A stretch of 64,000 bases of DNA. Origin: Microbacterium profundi (GTDB lineage Bacteria; Actinomycetota; Actinomycetes; Actinomycetales; Microbacteriaceae). Below are positions 40,491 through 52,669 of the stretch, piece after piece. Position numbers and translations under genes: made by a program. The stretch is from assembly GCF_000763375.1 (NCBI RefSeq), contig NZ_JPSY01000001.1:1550001-1614000 (forward strand), read 5' to 3'. A model generated the notes under the pieces. That model was not told the DNA's origin. It worked only from the letters and a program-made list of their open reading frames with translations, and did no database searches. Position 1 is the first letter of the stretch; the number at the start of each line of letters is the position of its first letter.

Positions 40491-40494
<4 letters not shown>

Positions 40495-41759
40495 GAAGTG
40501 GACTCAGCGACGACGACCTGGCGAGGATCGATCAACACCTCGCCACGACCGACGACCTTCTCGACACCGTCTACCCGGGAGACAGCGGTGCGCGCCAGCC
40601 GGTGCACACGGTCTACGTTCCCGCGGATCAGTTCACGCCGGATTTCGCCGCGCAGTGGGGTGCGCAGGCGCTCGCCGCTGTCGAGGCAGCAGGTGGGATG
40701 GAGGCCCTCGCCGCGCAGGTAGGAATCGAGCCCGGTCTCATCGGCGAAGTGGCCGGTCGGGTGGCGCGCAAGCTCTCGACCGAACCGATCGAGGATCTGC
40801 GGCTGGATTTCGAAGACGGCTACGGTGATCGCGGCGACGTCGAAGACGCGGATGTCGCGATGGCCGCGTCGAAGGTGTCGGATGCCGTGGCATCCGGGTC
40901 GGCTCCGCCCTTCATCGGCATCCGCTTCAAATGCTTCGAGAAGCCGACGCGTGCCCGCGGCCTTCGCACTCTCGATCGGTTCATCGGCGGTCTGCTCGAG
41001 GCCGGCGGTCTGCCCGACGGACTGGTGCTCACCCTGCCGAAGGTGACGACGACCGCGCAGGTGGAGGCGATGGTCATCGCCGTGGCGGCTCTCGAGCGTG
41101 CACACGGACTGGATGCCGGACGTCTGCGCTTCGAAGTGCAGGTCGAGACGCCCCAGCTCGTGCTCGGGGCCGACGGGCGCTCGCCGCTGGCGCAGTTGCC
41201 CGTCGTCGCCCCGGGCCGCATCTCTGGTCTGCACTACGGCACCTACGACTACAGTGCCTCGCTCGGCATCGCCGCGGAGTATCAGTCGATGGAGCATCCG
41301 GCCGCCGATCTCGCGAAGCAGGTCATGCAGCTCGCGGTCGCAGGCACCGGCATCCGACTCTCTGACGGCTCGACCAACATCCTGCCGGTGGGCGAGCGCG
41401 CGGCGGAGGCATGGTCGCTGCACGCGCGACTCGTGCGGCGCTCGCTCGAACGCGGCTTCTACCAGGGCTGGGACCTGCACCCGCATCAGCTGCCGACGCG
41501 CTATCTCGCGACGTACGCCTTCTACCGACACGGCTACCCGGACTCGGCATCGCGGCTGCGCACGTACCTCGCGCAAGAGGAGGGTGCCGTCATGGACGAG
41601 CCGGCCACTGCGCGGGCGCTGGCGTGGTTCGTGCTCCGCGGCGTGCAGTGCGGAGCCATCGACGCCGACGAGGTGGCTGCGGACATCGGCATCCGGGTCG
41701 ACGCGCTCACCGCGCTCGCTCATCCCAGGCTCTCAGACCACGCGCTCGCGCGCGCCTGA
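40491..41759 (+). CDS. DUF6986 protein, CitE/aldolase-like
   Basis: The 422-residue protein has the outline of a CitE/HpcH aldolase barrel: LRLDFEDGYGDRGD (acidic metal-binding loop), FIGIRFKCFEKPTRARGL, LVLTLPKVTTTAQVEAM and FEVQVETPQLVLG. I recall this as DUF6986. Relatives cleave or form malyl-type carbon bonds. It is translationally coupled to malate synthase (ATGA) and followed by AllE, so a role in glyoxylate or ureidoglycolate metabolism is likely but unproven. No signal peptide or membrane span. Confidence 0.7.
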
Positions 41760-41786: not shown

Positions 41787-42626
41787 ATGAGCTATTACAC
41801 ACCGGCCGGCGGCCTGCCGGACCAGACCACGCTGCTCACGGATCGCGCCATCGTCAAAGAGGCGTACACGGTCATCCCCAAGGGCGTCTTCCGCGACATC
41901 GTCACGAGCAACCTGCCGGGTTTCACGAAGACGCGCTCGTGGATCATCGCCCGCCCGATCGCCGGATTCGCCACGACGTTCTCGCAGCTCATCGTCGAGA
42001 TCCAGCCGGGCGGCGGCGCTTCCCACCCCGAACCCGAGGCGGGCGTCGAGGGCGTGGTGTTCGTGACCGCAGGCGAGCTGACGGTGACGATCGCGGGACA
42101 GCGACATGTGCTCGCCGAGGGCGGCTACGCGTTCCTCGCACCCGGGGAGACGTGGTCGCTGGCCAACGAGGGTGCGGAGCTGACGTCGTTCCACTGGATC
42201 CGCAAGGCCTACGAGCGCGCGGGAGGCATCGCCTTGCCGAAGTCGTTCGTGACGCGCGATCAGGACGTCACGCCGCGTGAGATGCCGGACACCGACGGGG
42301 CATGGGCGACGACGCGCTTCGCCGATCCGGATGATCTGTCGCACGACATGCACGTCAACATCGTGACCTTCCAGCCCGGAGGATCGATCCCCTTCGCCGA
42401 GACGCACGTCATGGAGCACGGCCTCTTCGTGCTCGAGGGCAAGGCCGTCTATCGCCTCAACGATGACTGGGTCGAGGTCGAGGCCGGCGACTTCATGTGG
42501 CTGCGCGCGTTCTGTCCGCAGGCCTGCTACGCGGGCGGACCAGGGCCGTTCCGCTATCTGCTGTACAAGGACGTCAACCGCCAGGTCATGCTGACCCGCG
42601 GCGGGGATCCGCGTCCCTGGGGGTGA
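41787..42626 (+). CDS. allE: (S)-ureidoglycine aminohydrolase
   Basis: The 279-residue bicupin has two cupin halves: GGGASHPEPEAGVEGVVFVTAGELTVTIAGQ (first) and SIPFAETHVMEHGLFVLEGKAVYRLNDDWVEVEAGDFMWLRAFCPQACYAGG (second, in parts), where metal ligands lie in ETHVMEHG. It converts ureidoglycine to ureidoglycolate and ammonia. It ends the aceB unit, 27 bp after the DUF6986 gene, with an AAGGAGAATC ribosome site. Confidence 0.93.
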   Translation: MSYYTPAGGLPDQTTLLTDRAIVKEAYTVIPKGVFRDIVTSNLPGFTKTRSWIIARPIAGFATTFSQLIVEIQPGGGASHPEPEAGVEGVVFVTAGELTVTIAGQRHVLAEGGYAFLAPGETWSLANEGAELTSFHWIRKAYERAGGIALPKSFVTRDQDVTPREMPDTDGAWATTRFADPDDLSHDMHVNIVTFQPGGSIPFAETHVMEHGLFVLEGKAVYRLNDDWVEVEAGDFMWLRAFCPQACYAGGPGPFRYLLYKDVNRQVMLTRGGDPRPWG

Positions 42627-44048: not shown

Positions 44049-44852
44049 ATGACGTACACGGTGAACTGCTCGATCCTTCTCACCGAGCTCCCGCTGCTCG
44101 AGCGCCCCGCCGCGGCGAAGGCCGCCGGATTCGACGCGGTCGAGTTCTGGTGGCCGTTCTCCACCTCTGTACCGCTCGACCACGAGGTCGACGCGTTCAT
44201 CGCCGCCATCCGCGACGCAGGCGTGCAGCTGACCGGCCTCAACTTCAACGCCGGCGACATGCCGAACGGCGACCGCGGACTGGTCTCGTGGCCCGCACGC
44301 GGCAAAGAGTTCCGCGACAACCTGGCCGTCGTGGTCGGCATCGCACGCGAACTCGGCACCAAGGGTTTCAACGCGCTGTATGGCAACCGCATCGACGGGG
44401 TCGATCCCGCCGCTCAGGATGCCGTGGCGATCGAGAACCTCGCGGCCGCGGCCGAAGCCGTCGGGACAGTCGGGGGCACCGTGCTCGTCGAGCCGGTCAG
44501 CGGCGCAGAGCGGTACCCGCTGCGCACTGCGGCGGACGCTCTGGACGTCATCGACCACGTCCGCACCTCGACCGGCGCGCGCAACCTCGCCCTGCTCGCC
44601 GATTTCTACCACCTCGCCGTGAACGGCGACGATGTGCCCCAGGTCATCGAAGAGCACGCCGCATCGTTCGGTCACATCCAGATCGCGGATGCGCCCGGCC
44701 GCGGCGCCCCCGGAACGGGCGCCCTACCCATCGACACCTGGATCGCACGCAGCCAAGAGCTCGGCTATTCCGGCTACATCGGCCTCGAGTACAAGGCGCC
44801 CATCGAGACCGCGTTCGCATGGGCGGCAGCAGCCGCCGGCAGAACGCGCTGA
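44049..44852 (+). CDS. hyi: Hydroxypyruvate isomerase
   Basis: The 267-residue protein is an AP-endonuclease-2-type TIM barrel: SILLTELPLLERPAAAKAAGFDAVEFWWPF, GLNFNAGDMPNGDRG, VGGTVLVEPVSG and HIQIADAPGRGAPGTGALP. It interconverts hydroxypyruvate and tartronate semialdehyde, next to Gcl and GlxR. First gene of the long unit hyi-glxR-gcl-glxK/allB-bcp. Confidence 0.93.
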   Translation: MTYTVNCSILLTELPLLERPAAAKAAGFDAVEFWWPFSTSVPLDHEVDAFIAAIRDAGVQLTGLNFNAGDMPNGDRGLVSWPARGKEFRDNLAVVVGIARELGTKGFNALYGNRIDGVDPAAQDAVAIENLAAAAEAVGTVGGTVLVEPVSGAERYPLRTAADALDVIDHVRTSTGARNLALLADFYHLAVNGDDVPQVIEEHAASFGHIQIADAPGRGAPGTGALPIDTWIARSQELGYSGYIGLEYKAPIETAFAWAAAAAGRTR

Positions 44853-44903: not shown

Positions 44904-45782
44904 ATGAGCAGCATCGCAGTCATCGGCCTCGGCATCATGGGCCTTCCCATGGCCAAGAACCTCATCGCCGCAGGACACTCGGTCACCGGCTACAACCTCA
45001 GCAAAGACCGCATCGACGAACTCGTCGCCGCGGGCGGCCAGGGCGCCGACGGCATCCCCGCGGCAGTCAAGGGCGCCGACGTCATCATCACCATGGTGCC
45101 GGACTCCCCTGATGTCGCAGCCGCCGTCCGCGGCGAAGAGGGCATCTTCGCGCACGCCGAGAAGGGAGCGCTGTGGATCGACGCATCCAGCATCCGCCCC
45201 GACGTCGCGAAGGAGCTCGCCGACGAGGCGATCGCCGCGGGCCTCCGCGCCGTCGACGCTCCCGTCTCGGGGGGTGAGCAGGGTGCGATCGACGCCGTGC
45301 TGTCGATCATGGTCGGCGGCACCGAACAGGACTTCGCCGACGCTCTGAAGGTGCTCGAGTCGGTCGGCAAGACCATCGTGCACGTCGGGCCTGCAGGCGC
45401 CGGGCAGACGGTGAAGGCGGCCAACCAGCTGATCGTCGCCGTGAACATCCAGGCGCTGGCCGAGGCCATCATCTTCCTCGAGGCATTCGGCGTCGACACG
45501 GATGCTGCGCTCAAGGTGCTCGGCGGCGGACTCGCCGGATCCAAGGTGCTCGACCAGAAGGGCCAGAAGATGCTCGATCGCGACTTCTCGCCCGGATTCC
45601 GCCTCGCCCTCCACAACAAGGACATGGGCATCATCACCGCCGCCGCACGACAGGCAGGCATCACCATCCCGCTCGGCGCCCACGTGGCCCAGCTCGTCGG
45701 CTCCGCCGTGCAGCAGGGCGACGCCGGCCTTGACCACTCCGGGCTGTTCAAGCTGACCGCGGCCTTCGCCGGTCGCGCCTGA
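44904..45782 (+). CDS. glxR: 2-hydroxy-3-oxopropionate (tartronate semialdehyde) reductase
   Basis: The 292-residue beta-hydroxyacid dehydrogenase has the Rossmann start [24 protein letters not shown], the substrate loop [13 protein letters not shown] and the catalytic Lys in [14 protein letters not shown]. It reduces tartronate semialdehyde to D-glycerate with NAD(P)H. AAGGAATCATC precedes the ATG. Confidence 0.94.
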
Positions 45783-45795
45783 CCCGCACCCCGAC

Positions 45796-45879
45796 CGCTG
45801 AGCCTGTCAAAGCGTCGGGCCCTTCGACAGGCTCAGGGACCTTCGACAGGCTCAGGGACCTTCGACAGGCTCAGGGACC
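45796..45879. repeat. Cluster of the CTTCGACAGGCTCAGGGAC element
   Basis: One inverted copy (CGCTGAGCCTGTCAAAGCG, 45796-45814) faces three direct copies 20 bp apart (45820-45879). The arms can pair as CTGAGCCTGTC/GACAGGCTCAG, giving a hairpin between glxR and gcl that might attenuate or stabilise the transcript. Confidence 0.85.
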
Positions 45880-45901
45880 GATCACTCTCAAGGAGAATCT
45901 C

Positions 45902-47698
<1,797 letters not shown>

Positions 47699-47699
47699 G

Positions 47700-50255
47700 A
47701 TGCGTCTGGTCATCGCCCCCGACAAGTTCAAAGGGTCGCTGACGGCTCCCGAGGTGGCTGAAAGGGTCGCCTCGGGAGCGCGGCGCGCCGACCCGACGAT
47801 CGAGGTCGTGACCGTTCCGGTCGCCGACGGCGGTGAGGGCACTCTGGATGCCGTGCTCGCCGCAGGATTCTCCTCCCGTACTGCTCTGGTCGCCGGACCG
47901 ACCGGTGCGCGGATCGAGGCGGAGTTCGCGGTGCGCGGTGAAGAAGCGGTCGTCGAGATGGCGCGCGCCTCTGGCCTCGACTTGCTACCCGGTGGCCGTA
48001 AGGATGCGCTCGGGGCGACGAGTCTCGGCACCGGCCAGCTCATCCGCGCGGCTCTGGATGCCGGATGCCGACGCATCGTGCTCGGAATCGGAGGCAGCGC
48101 TTCCACCGACGGTGGGGCCGGTCTGCTGCAGGGGCTCGGCGTGCGGTTCCTCGACGCGGACGGTTCAGAACTGCGGGCGGGTGGCGGGGCACTCGCGCGC
48201 CTCGACTCCGTGGACGTGAGTGGGTTGGATGCACGGCTGCGCGACGCCGAGATCATCCTGGCGAGCGACGTGGACAATCCGCTCACCGGGCCGACCGGCG
48301 CTGCAGAGGTGTTCGGGCCGCAGAAGGGCGCGAGTGCCGACGACGTCGCGACGCTCGAGGCGGGTCTTGCGCGGTTGGTCGAGGTGCTTTCTGCCGCGGG
48401 CGGGTTCCCTGTCGCTGCGGCCGACGCCGCTTCCCGAGAGGGGGCTGGTGCCGCCGGCGGCGTGGGATTCGCCGCCATAGCGCTCGGCGCGACCAGGCGC
48501 GCGGGAGTCGACGTCGTCCTCGAAATGACAGGCCTCGCCTCCCAGATGGAGGGGGCGGATGCCGTCATCACCGGCGAGGGCAGCCTCGACGAGCAGAGCC
48601 TGATGGGCAAGACCCCGGTCGGCGTCGCACGTGCGGCGGCCGCTGCCGGCCTGCCGGTGTACGCGGTCTGCGGGCGGACGACGCTGTCCGCCGATGCGAT
48701 TGCGGACGCCGGGTTCGCCGGAGCTCGCGCACTGTCCGAGCTCGAACCAGACGCCGAGCGCAGCATGGCTGAGGCCGGTCCGCTGCTTGAAGAGCTCGCC
48801 GAGGGCTTGGTGCGCACGATCATCGCAGAGCTCGATCTTGCAGAGCTCGATCTTGCAGGACCCGATACTGCAGGCGCGCACCGCTATGACCTCGTTCTTC
48901 GCGGTCGCGCCCTGATCGACGGTGCGATCACCTCCGCTGAGATCGGGGTGCGCGACGGCCGAATCGCCAAGGTCGCTCCTGCGGATGCCGGGCTCAGCGC
49001 CGCCCGGATCGTCGAACTCGCCGCGGACGAGGTGCTCCTGCCCGGCCTGGTAGACACGCACGTGCACGTCAACGAACCGGGTCGCACCGAGTGGGAGGGT
49101 TTCGAATCCGCCACGAGGGCGGCCGCGGCCGGTGGGGTCACGACGATCGTGGACATGCCGCTCAACAGCATCCCTCCCACCGTCTCGGTCGCTGCGCTCG
49201 ATGAGAAGCGCGCCGTGGCGGAGGGGCGCGTCTTCGTCGACGTCGGATTCTGGGGCGGGGTGATCCCCGGCAACATCGCCGAGCTCGCTCCACTGCACGA
49301 CGCGGGCGTCTACGGGTTCAAATGCTTCCTGCTTCCCTCCGGGGTCGATGAGTTCCCTGAGGTGTCTGTCGTCGAGATGCGCGACGCGATGGCGGTGCTC
49401 GCAGGGCTGGACTCGCTGCTGGTCGTGCACGCCGAAGATGCGCACATCATCGAGGAGTCGGTGCAGCCGGGGAGCCGCGAATACGCGCCGTTCCTCGCCT
49501 CGCGCCCGCGCTCGGCGGAGGATGCGGCGATCGCCGAGGTGATCCAGGGCGCGGCCGACACCGGCATACGCGCACACATCCTGCACCTCTCCAATGGCGA
49601 CTCGCTCGGACGGATCGCGGCGGCTCGAGCCGATGGCGTCGACCTCACGGTGGAGACCTGCCCGCACTATCTGACACTCACCGCCGAAGACATCCTCGAC
49701 GGGAGCACAGCATTCAAATGCTGTCCGCCGATTCGCGAGGGCGACAATCGCGACGAGCTGTGGCGCGGATTGTCGGAGGGGACGATCGACTACATCGTCT
49801 CCGATCATTCGCCGTCGACGCCTGAGATGAAGTTCGCCGGCGACGGTGACTTCTCGCTGGCGTGGGGCGGCATCGCGTCACTGCAGCTGGGGCTCCCGCT
49901 CGTGTGGACGCACGCGCGCGAGCGCGGGTACTCGCTCGAGCAGGTCGTGTCGCTCATGGCCGAGAAACCGGCGGCAAGAGTCGGTCTGGTCGACAAGGGC
50001 CGCATCATCGAGGGCGGCGCGGCCGATTTCGCCGTCTTCGCCCCGGAGGAGACGTTCACCGTCGATGCGAAGCGCCTTGCGCACCGGCATCCGATCACCC
50101 CCTACGACGGCCAGCAGCTCACGGGTATCGTGCGAACGACCTACCTCGCCGGAGCGCGGGTCGAGAGCGACGCCCCTCGCGGCCGGCTGCTGCGACGGGA
50201 AGACCCGGCCAGTCGGAGAACCGCCGAACCTATCGAGAATGGAGAAACCGCATGA
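47700..50255 (+). CDS. Glycerate kinase-allantoinase fusion protein
   Basis: One open frame of 851 residues holds two complete enzymes. Residues 1-375 are a glycerate kinase ([51 protein letters not shown]). Residues about 395-851 are an allantoinase: [13 protein letters not shown] (metal His pair, about 452), GVYGFKCFL (carboxylated Lys, about 540), VETCPHYLT and YIVSDHSPS (metal Asp). A 20-residue joint with a repeated AELDL unit replaces stop and start. Allantoin would be opened to allantoate by one half and glycerate phosphorylated by the other, the two ends of the same pathway. It starts 1 bp after gcl and overlaps the next gene by ATGA. Confidence 0.9.
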
Positions 50256-50728
50256 TCAACTCAACCGAAGAGCTCGAGGTCGGCCAGAAGGCTCCGGACT
50301 TCACGCTCACCGATGCATCCGGAACCCAGCGCACGCTGTCCGAGCTGCGCGGTGCACCAGTCATCGTCTACTTCTATCCGGCGGCGTTCACGCCTGGCTG
50401 CACAACCGAGGCGTGCGACTTCCGCGACAACCTCGGGTCGTTCCAGGGTGCTGGGTACACAGTGCTCGGGATCTCGCCCGATCCGGTCTCGAAGCTCGCG
50501 GAGTTCGCGGAGGCCGAACAGCTGAGCTTCCCGCTGCTGTCCGACGAGGATTCCGCTGTCGCGAAGGAATGGGGTGCGTGGGGTCAGAAGACCGTGAGCG
50601 GCCGCACGTTCGACGGCCTGATCCGCACGACGGTGGTGATCGACGCCGACGGGGTCATCTCGTCCGTGGAGTACAACGTGAACCCTGAGGGGCACGTCGC
50701 GCGGCTCAGGGACGAACTGCTGAAATGA
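50252..50728 (+). CDS. bcp: Peroxiredoxin, BCP/PrxQ type
   Basis: The 158-residue protein has the peroxidatic centre [21 protein letters not shown] (Cys in PGCTTEAC, with the resolving Cys five residues on) and [14 protein letters not shown]. It reduces hydrogen peroxide and organic peroxides using thioredoxin. Start at 50252 overlaps the fusion gene. Its place in the cluster makes sense because urate oxidase, encoded just downstream, makes hydrogen peroxide. Confidence 0.92.
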
Positions 50729-50875: not shown

Positions 50876-51373
50876 ATGTTGCTTGAGCAATTCAATCTGG
50901 CGGAGCGAGGCGACGCTGTCGCCGCGCTCAGGCCGTGCATCGATGTGACGCGATGGTGTGAAGACATCGTCGATCGCCGTCCGTACGAGTCGGTCGATTC
51001 TCTCGTGACGGAGGCGGCGCAGGCCGCCGATCCATTCACGGCCGAGGAGATCGATTCGGCTCTCGCGCACCATCCTCGGATCGGTGAACGTGCGGGGGGC
51101 GACAGCAGGGAGGCGACGCTGTCGCGCTCCGAGCAGGCCGGGGTCGACCCGTCCGATGCCGACGTGCAGCAGGCGCTTCGCGACGGCAACCTCGCGTACG
51201 AGGAGCGCTTCGGCCGGGTCTTCCTGATCCGCGCGGCCGGGCGATCGGCGGGCGAGATCCTGTCGAGTCTGCGGGAACGTCTGCAGCACGATCCAGCCTC
51301 GGAAGAGCGGATCATCGCCGGGCAACTGCGAGAGATCGCACTGCTCCGACTGAGAGGAACCATCACCGCATGA
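50876..51373 (+). CDS. uraD: 2-oxo-4-hydroxy-4-carboxy-5-ureidoimidazoline (OHCU) decarboxylase
   Basis: The 165-residue helical protein has the family active-site segment ALAHHPRIGERAGGDSREATLSRSEQAGV (His in HHPRIG). It decarboxylates OHCU to (S)-allantoin. First gene of uraD-uraH-pucL, with 4-bp overlap to uraH. Confidence 0.93.
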   Translation: MLLEQFNLAERGDAVAALRPCIDVTRWCEDIVDRRPYESVDSLVTEAAQAADPFTAEEIDSALAHHPRIGERAGGDSREATLSRSEQAGVDPSDADVQQALRDGNLAYEERFGRVFLIRAAGRSAGEILSSLRERLQHDPASEERIIAGQLREIALLRLRGTITA

Positions 51374-51714
51374 CTGCTGTGTCGCACATCACGACCCACG
51401 TGCTCGATGCCGTCCAGGGGCTTCCGGCACCGGGCGTCACGGTGGTGCTCTCCGCTCTCAGAGACGGTGAGTGGATGCTGCTCGCCGAGGGCGTCACGGA
51501 TTCCGACGGCCGCGCCAAGCAGCTCGGCCCCGAGGTCGTGCCCGCCGGCACCTACCGGCTCCATTTCGACACCGGCGGGTACTTCGCCCGCACCGACACC
51601 CCCACCTTCTATCCCGAAGTCGTGCTCACGTTCGTCGTCGATGACGAGCAGCGTCACTATCACGTGCCGCTGCTGCTGAGCCCCTTCGCATATTCGACCT
51701 ACCGAGGAAGTTAG
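51370..51714 (+). CDS. uraH: 5-hydroxyisourate hydrolase
   Basis: The 114-residue transthyretin-like protein starts HITTHVLDAVQGLPAPGVTV and ends with the diagnostic YRGS. Conserved His in TTHVLD and HYHVPLLLSP are the catalytic residues of the family. It hydrolyses urate oxidase's product 5-hydroxyisourate to OHCU. Also called pucM. Confidence 0.96.
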   Translation: MTAVSHITTHVLDAVQGLPAPGVTVVLSALRDGEWMLLAEGVTDSDGRAKQLGPEVVPAGTYRLHFDTGGYFARTDTPTFYPEVVLTFVVDDEQRHYHVPLLLSPFAYSTYRGS

Positions 51715-51718
51715 AACG

Positions 51719-52669
51719 ATGACCGACATCATGACCCGCACCGAGACCTCCACCGCGACGCCGGACGACGGCATCATTCTCGGCCCGAACCAGTACGGCA
51801 AGGCCGAGGTCCGCGTCGTCAAGGTCACCAGAGACGGTGACCGGCACTCGATCGAGGACCTCAATGTCACTTCGCAGTTGCGCGGCGACTTCCAGGCCGC
51901 GCACCTCGACGGCGACAACGGTCACGTCGTCGCTACCGACACCCAGAAGAACACCGTGTTCTGCTTCGCGCGGGAGGGGATCGGTTCGCCCGAGGCGTTC
52001 CTGCTGCGGCTCTCCGATCACTTCACGAGCTCGTTCGACTGGGTCAAGGGCGGTCGCTGGCTCGCGGAGAGCTACGCGTGGGACCGGATCCAGGTCGACG
52101 GCGAAGGGCACGACCACTCCTTCGTCCGCTCGGGGCAAGAGACGCGCACGGCCGTCGTCGTCGCCGGGGGGGCGGAGCGGCACATCATCGCCGGGCTGAA
52201 GGGACTGACGGTGCTCAAGACCACGCAGTCCGGATTCGTCGGGTTCCCGAAGGACCGATACACGTCGCTCAAGGAGACCACCGACCGCATCCTCGCCACC
52301 GACGTCTCGGCGCGCTGGCGGTACGCCCAGGATGCCGATGCTCGCGATCTGGACTTCAATGAGATCTACGCGGACGTGAAGCGCATCCTGCTGGAGGAGT
52401 TCACGCGGCAATACTCGGCTGCGCTGCAGGCGACGCTGTTCGATATGGGCCGTGCGGTGCTCGCAGCGCATCCTGAGATCGCGGAGATCCGCTTCTCGAT
52501 GCCCAACAAGCATCACTTCGTCGTCGATCTCGAACCGTACGGTCTCGACAACCCCAACGAGGTGTTCTTCGCCTCCGATCGCTCGTACGGCCTGATCGAA
52601 GCGGCCGTGACCCGTGAGGGTCAGGCCGAGGTGGCGTCGGCATGGGAGGCGGTCAGCTCGTTCTGCTGA
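51719..52669 (+). CDS. pucL: Urate oxidase (factor-independent urate hydroxylase)
   Basis: The 316-residue T-fold protein has YGKAEVRVVKV (Lys of the catalytic diad), GHVVATDTQKNTVFCFA (Thr of the diad), and MPNKHHFVVDLEPYGL (family signature). It oxidises urate with O2 to 5-hydroxyisourate and H2O2 without a cofactor. Unlike some homologues it is not fused to OHCU decarboxylase. Last gene of the unit; the next gene converges. Confidence 0.96.
   Translation: MTDIMTRTETSTATPDDGIILGPNQYGKAEVRVVKVTRDGDRHSIEDLNVTSQLRGDFQAAHLDGDNGHVVATDTQKNTVFCFAREGIGSPEAFLLRLSDHFTSSFDWVKGGRWLAESYAWDRIQVDGEGHDHSFVRSGQETRTAVVVAGGAERHIIAGLKGLTVLKTTQSGFVGFPKDRYTSLKETTDRILATDVSARWRYAQDADARDLDFNEIYADVKRILLEEFTRQYSAALQATLFDMGRAVLAAHPEIAEIRFSMPNKHHFVVDLEPYGLDNPNEVFFASDRSYGLIEAAVTREGQAEVASAWEAVSSFC

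Follow-up and report, generated by a model that had tools for sequence, protein, structure and literature searches.

In-frame fusion of glycerate kinase and allantoinase genes in Microbacterium profundi, within a uric acid utilisation cluster, and in other actinobacteria

In E. coli, allantoinase (AllB) and the glycerate kinase GlxK are separate proteins that bind each other in the presence of glyoxylate, as reported by Rodionova et al. 2023 (PMC10163214) from native gel and co-immunoprecipitation. According to the same paper, the binding also occurs with allantoin in E. coli cells, and GlxK, with glyoxylate, lowers the Km of zinc-form AllB for allantoin from >15 to 2.8 ± 0.4 mM; for the manganese form the Km changed from 5.8 ± 1.2 to 3.8 ± 0.9 mM, values that nearly overlap. 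The authors found the docked GlxK-AllB surfaces to be poorly conserved and judged the contact not to be general and perhaps recent (PMC10163214). The words "fusion" and "fused" are absent from the text of that paper. Other enzymes of uric acid and allantoin catabolism have been reported as fusions: Cryptococcus DAL2,3,3 is an allantoicase-ureidoglycolate hydrolase fusion (PMC3646786), and in plants OHCU decarboxylase is fused with HIU hydrolase (PMC2834698). Those proteins join consecutive steps, whereas the fusion described here joins opposite ends of the pathway, so channelling is not an obvious gain. The same two enzymes that associate in E. coli are involved; however, the E. coli proteins are separate chains with ligand-dependent binding, and the M. 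profundi genes form one frame, kinase first.

The window analysed is a stretch of 64,000 nucleotides of the M. profundi genome, and its relevant features are collected in Table 1. Profile searches with Pfam and TIGRFAM-type models placed the fusion gene in a neighbourhood devoted to the use of uric acid and glyoxylate, in the order DUF6986, ureidoglycine aminohydrolase, hydroxypyruvate isomerase-like, glxR, gcl, fusion, peroxiredoxin, uraD, HIU hydrolase and uricase. Upstream are genes for malate synthase and xanthine dehydrogenase and for a regulator that is matched best by IclR-type models, below their cut-offs. One base separates the end of gcl from the fusion ATG, and the peroxiredoxin start overlaps the fusion stop as ATGA. 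The peroxiredoxin, encoded between allantoinase and the uricase genes, may serve to detoxify peroxide from the uricase reaction. The ureidoglycine aminohydrolase (41787-42626) also scored above the cut-off of NF040771 (476.8 vs 350 bits), a model named bifunctional allantoicase/ureidoglycine aminohydrolase. The DUF6986 protein (40491-41759) matched PF22484 with 581.9 bits and, weakly, the HpcH/HpaI aldolases; in 20 unique loci a relative sits immediately before the gene for ureidoglycine aminohydrolase.

Table 1. Features of the window in and around the fused gene
Feature	Position	Strand	Evidence
Hydroxypyruvate isomerase-like gene, upstream	44049-44852	+	TIGR03234, 244 bits, below cut-off 353.45
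Tartronate semialdehyde reductase gene, upstream	44904-45782	+	TIGR01505, 345.8 bits, above cut-off 340.75
Glyoxylate carboligase gene, gcl	45902-47698	+	TIGR01504, 1095.8 bits, above cut-off
GlxK-AllB fusion gene	47700-50255	+	One open frame, 851 aa, without internal stop
Glycerate kinase half, GlxK type, residues 1-374	47700-48821	+	PF02595, TIGR00045; model matches 3cwc and 1to6
Linker, residues 375-394	48822-48881	+	AlphaFold2 and pN/pS
Two exact 15-nt units GCAGAGCTCGATCTT (AELDL twice), degenerate further copy behind	48825-48854	+	Repeat search, TRF
Allantoinase half, AllB, residues 395-851, and stop	48882-50255	+	TIGR03178; model matches 3hm7, 8hfd and 3e74
Peroxiredoxin gene	50252-50728	+	PF00578; NF006960, 156.3 bits, cut-off 140
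uraD, HIU hydrolase and uricase genes (allantoin-forming steps)	50876-52669	+	TIGR03180, TIGR02962, TIGR03383, all above cut-offs

PF02595 spanned residues 4-374 (E 1.8e-124; 415.9 bits vs a cut-off of 23.3) and the glycerate kinase model TIGR00045 was passed with 369.5 bits (cut-off 168.45). The allantoinase model TIGR03178 spanned residues 397-831 and was passed with 553.1 bits (cut-off 357.85). Other models scored below their cut-offs on both halves, namely, on the kinase half, the two that would tell 2- from 3-phosphoglycerate as the product, glycerate 2-kinase NF007668 (279 vs 686 bits) and glycerate 3-kinase NF007401 (284.7 vs 625), and, on the other, the narrower allantoinase models NF004839 (425.4 vs 631) and NF005960 (322.1 vs 688). 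Sequence and structure comparison found the glycerate kinases 3cwc and 1to6 and the allantoinases 3hm7, 3e74 and 8hfd among the closest relatives of solved structure. The AllB half was aligned to 3e74 and 3hm7, and catalytic and metal-site positions were conserved in all 75 aligned sequences (the fusion and 74 of 78 full two-domain homologues, four being left out). H454, H456, K541, H577, H629 and D702, identical in 75/75, are taken to be the allantoinase metal site including the carboxylated lysine, with the ligand set assigned by E. coli AllB. K146 of the latter is named in PMC10163214. The initial annotation had proposed two complete enzymes in a single 851-residue frame, with intact allantoinase metal ligands and with partners acting at opposite ends of one pathway, and this description is borne out.

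Nine pairwise comparisons gave pN/pS values of 0.15-0.40 for the kinase half and 0.11-0.41 for the allantoinase half. The genome assembly (12 contigs, rated 100% complete) contains a single PF02595 match and a single allantoinase above the TIGR03178 cut-off, both located in the fusion gene; five other matches to allantoinase models were all below cut-off, the best with 265.8 bits. A 996-aa open frame on the minus strand (45833-48823), running opposite to both gcl and the kinase half, is probably a high-GC artefact.

The initial annotation had noted a repeated AELDL unit at the joint, and an exact direct repeat was indeed found there (48825-48839 and 48840-48854, 15 nt each; 2.3 copies of the unit and a degenerate further copy according to TRF). 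The possibility was considered that the fusion arose recently by slippage at this repeat, as that annotation had suggested, or that a sequencing error at this site masks a real stop codon. The repeat does sit at the joint, but the unit is a multiple of three nucleotides, so a miscount of copies neither makes nor deletes a stop and the reading frame is preserved. Moreover, the closest relative (P0001, 98% identical) has three AELDL units vs two in the fusion, none occurs in P0006 and P0007, with about 97% identity over the kinase half, and 77 full two-domain proteins beyond P0001 share the architecture. An exact tandem unit was detected by a simple search in the linkers of only three of the 78 homologues. 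Recent slippage or a hidden stop is accordingly regarded as extremely improbable, and the AELDL repeat, although real, did not bring about the fusion but is a late addition to an older linker. The two-domain protein P0060 has a linker duplication of its own, RIAAEHLDG twice, indicating that tandem repeats arise independently in such linkers.

AlphaFold2 predicted two confident domains with a pTM of 0.58 and a linker of low confidence, so that no fixed contact between the halves is predicted. In the model, the last kinase helix (359-384) runs through most of the AELDL stretch into the linker, and residues 385-393 have a pLDDT below 50, which is very low confidence. The linker pN/pS was 0.54-1.30, higher than that of both halves in 9/9 comparisons, with few sites in the linker. 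Among the 78 homologues linker length varies between 1 and 72 residues (median 10.5; three or fewer in 22), which does not suggest a precise geometry.

A database search for the two-domain architecture, the check proposed in the initial annotation, was carried out with the joint region as query. It matched 2724 proteins, and among the best 120 of these both domains were present in full in 78 and in part in six more, the incomplete entries P0048, P0069, P0073, P0077, P0079 and P0097 being set aside. The full two-domain proteins with named sources are all actinobacterial (Microbacterium, Agromyces, Georgenia, Nocardioides, Leucobacter and a Microbacteriaceae MAG), and Kocuria was added by named loci with the fusion. 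Those with names in the public databases are called allantoinase or hypothetical protein, and entries labelled just "allantoinase" can conceal a genome's glycerate kinase. The remark in the initial annotation that it knew of no described fusion of this kind stands for the literature matches listed, in whose titles and abstract openings no prior description of a GlxK-AllB fusion was met, although the proteins themselves are already in public databases. One candidate report, PMC12535856, was rejected; the "fusion" in it is a lacZ reporter.

Genome draws were employed to assess how common the fusion is. Within the genus, a kinase match at 1e-70 was found in 25 of 149 genomes; five of the 25 were fused, and four had a separate allB next to the kinase gene in the short flanks examined. 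In a draw of 299 genomes from the family at least three fusions were confirmed (the M. profundi gene, G280 and G069), and in a draw of 393 genomes from the class, 212 of them with a kinase match at 1e-60, at least two (the M. profundi gene and G280). These counts indicate a fusion that is common within one clade but rare overall. A threshold of 1e-190 was not specific for fusions, as it also takes in the unfused close allantoinases L111 and L112. Several long frames were considered as other fusions and rejected. Among the rows listed from the class draw, 15 kinase frames had at least 780 aa, the M. profundi gene, G280 and 13 others, and AllB was in the kinase frame in none of the 13. Candidate larger upstream fusions in L117, L041, L124, L039, L066, L043 and L115 had an extra part without a further Pfam domain, and the long frames L158, L160, L161 and L171 had no other domain on checking.

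The history of the joint was evaluated on a concatenated tree of 84 dereplicated pairs from 118 rows, of which 62 were fused, 20 adjacent and two separate. The fused state changes at least seven times on this tree, all changes being forced by branches starred in a quick method; gains and losses are counted alike on all of these trees, their direction being indistinguishable. An AU test on 44 rows, with the long branches L049, P0068 and L039 omitted and the fused rows thinned to 24, gave six changes and rejected a single clade of fusions (log-likelihood difference 427, p 4.3e-6). The kinase-only and allantoinase-only trees had nine changes each, of which five and six, respectively, were forced. 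The clade that holds the M. profundi fusion comprises 38 fused rows after dereplication, with Microbacterium and Agromyces represented where sources are named, and looks like one old fusion. In Georgenia, one fused and one unfused species stand side by side on the tree. Within the fused clade also falls a lone kinase from a MAG, L125; what appears by eye to be a decayed allantoinase start follows it, and it is probably the split of a former fusion. The lone allantoinases L015, L016, L018, L019 and L112 lie inside a 43-row allantoinase clade and may have arisen by splitting or by loss of the kinase, or may descend from older unfused lineages. By these topologies, the same gene pair is one that was fused repeatedly, or fused and then split, in this operon group, and the joint seems to be old and to have arisen more than once.

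The possibility was also considered that the fusion is neutral, that is, operon neighbours lost the intervening stop by small changes and the product works with no benefit or regulatory contact, bifunctionality being an accident of gene order. Many actinobacteria without the fusion have the two genes next to each other (Paeniglutamicibacter, Glutamicibacter, Arthrobacter, Lentzea, Umezawaea, Actinotalea, one Georgenia and some Microbacterium), separated by a short gap, overlapping as ATGA, or sharing a frame that a single stop interrupts. The lone kinase and lone allantoinases inside the fused clade make the joint seem dispensable. Furthermore, among the matches listed AllB is also joined to UraD (at least 11 clusters), to a hydroxypyruvate isomerase-like domain (at least two) and to peroxiredoxin (at least two), with examples confirmed by Pfam, so AllB may simply be fusion-prone. 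However, chance loss of stops does not readily match the other junctions of the same loci. In the fetched loci minus five duplicates, a biased sample mostly chosen with a fused query, glxK-allB neighbours were fused in 13 of 36 (11 from the clade of the M. profundi fusion, Kocuria and G069). The gcl-glxK junction, although tighter (a median of 20.5 vs 122 nt between homology ends), was fused in 0/42, uraD-hiuH in 0/19 and hiuH-uricase in 0/17; junctions other than glxK-allB, taken together, gave 1/243. The sampling inflates the 13 fusions, yet it leaves the zeros elsewhere unexplained. One pair was fixed repeatedly, and the same pair binds in E. coli according to PMC10163214. A neutral origin is therefore considered rather unlikely, though it deserves serious weight.

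It is also conceivable that the frame is open but that the allantoinase is also, or mainly, made apart, either because translation starts internally, in the last kinase helix, or because the linker is cleaved. The full-length product has an estimated mass of about 88 kDa from its 851 aa. In-frame TTG and GTG codons occur at 48807 and 48810, the GTG with a fair Shine-Dalgarno duplex (-6.4 kcal/mol), and in L110 a strong duplex (-9.5) accompanies a GTG at 21 codons. An ATG lies no more than 22 codons from the allantoinase in three of 12 fused loci (L006, L008 and L089), but none is found in frame within 20 codons in 11/12 or within 22 in 9/12, and the candidate starts of the fused genes are at varying positions. 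The unfused pairs contrast with this, as 18 of 25 have an ATG within 22 codons and in the other seven the best start is a GTG within 24. Separate production of the allantoinase is thus judged improbable.

The reading favoured here, with somewhat better than even confidence, is that the frame encodes a real bifunctional GlxK-AllB protein whose joint would enforce a 1:1 contact of the E. coli type; by analogy, the fusion is probably a covalent form of that complex. A short flexible linker would tie the GlxK-type kinase to AllB in one chain with both halves active, and the kinase half would act as a built-in, glyoxylate-responsive activator of the allantoin entry step. Substrate channelling is unlikely since several steps lie between the two reactions. 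Fusion of the pair in another phylum, apparently more than once, is what a useful contact would be expected to favour. A broader proposal is more doubtful: the GlxK-AllB contact might be an old and general control of allantoin breakdown, with the kinase half as a glyoxylate sensor that switches on allantoinase, which actinobacteria made permanent several times. Repeated fusion of the pair in another phylum would provide independent evidence for a working partnership, against the view of a poorly conserved contact. It also offers a ready 1:1 construct for testing whether the contact matters, along with linkers that vary naturally, sister species without the fusion and one case of a split.

The other fusions of AllB likewise combine it with a partner from its own pathway or operon, but they differ from GlxK-AllB in having other partners and fewer lineages seen. 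In the AllB-UraD proteins (P0074, P0088, P0095, P0104, P0111, P0119, P0123-P0126 and P0128), three of them checked with Pfam, the OHCU decarboxylase is at the AllB C-terminus and the named sources are Agromyces. The hydroxypyruvate isomerase-like domain is at the AllB N-terminus in P0092 and P0132, from Arthrobacter yangruifuii and another source, and Agromyces aureus is an example of the AllB-peroxiredoxin fusion. In Agromyces terreus, a single open frame (L009:7001-10156) extends through glycerate kinase and allantoinase into peroxiredoxin and so amounts, as a frame, to a triple fusion; its database entry, P0115, covers the last two domains only.
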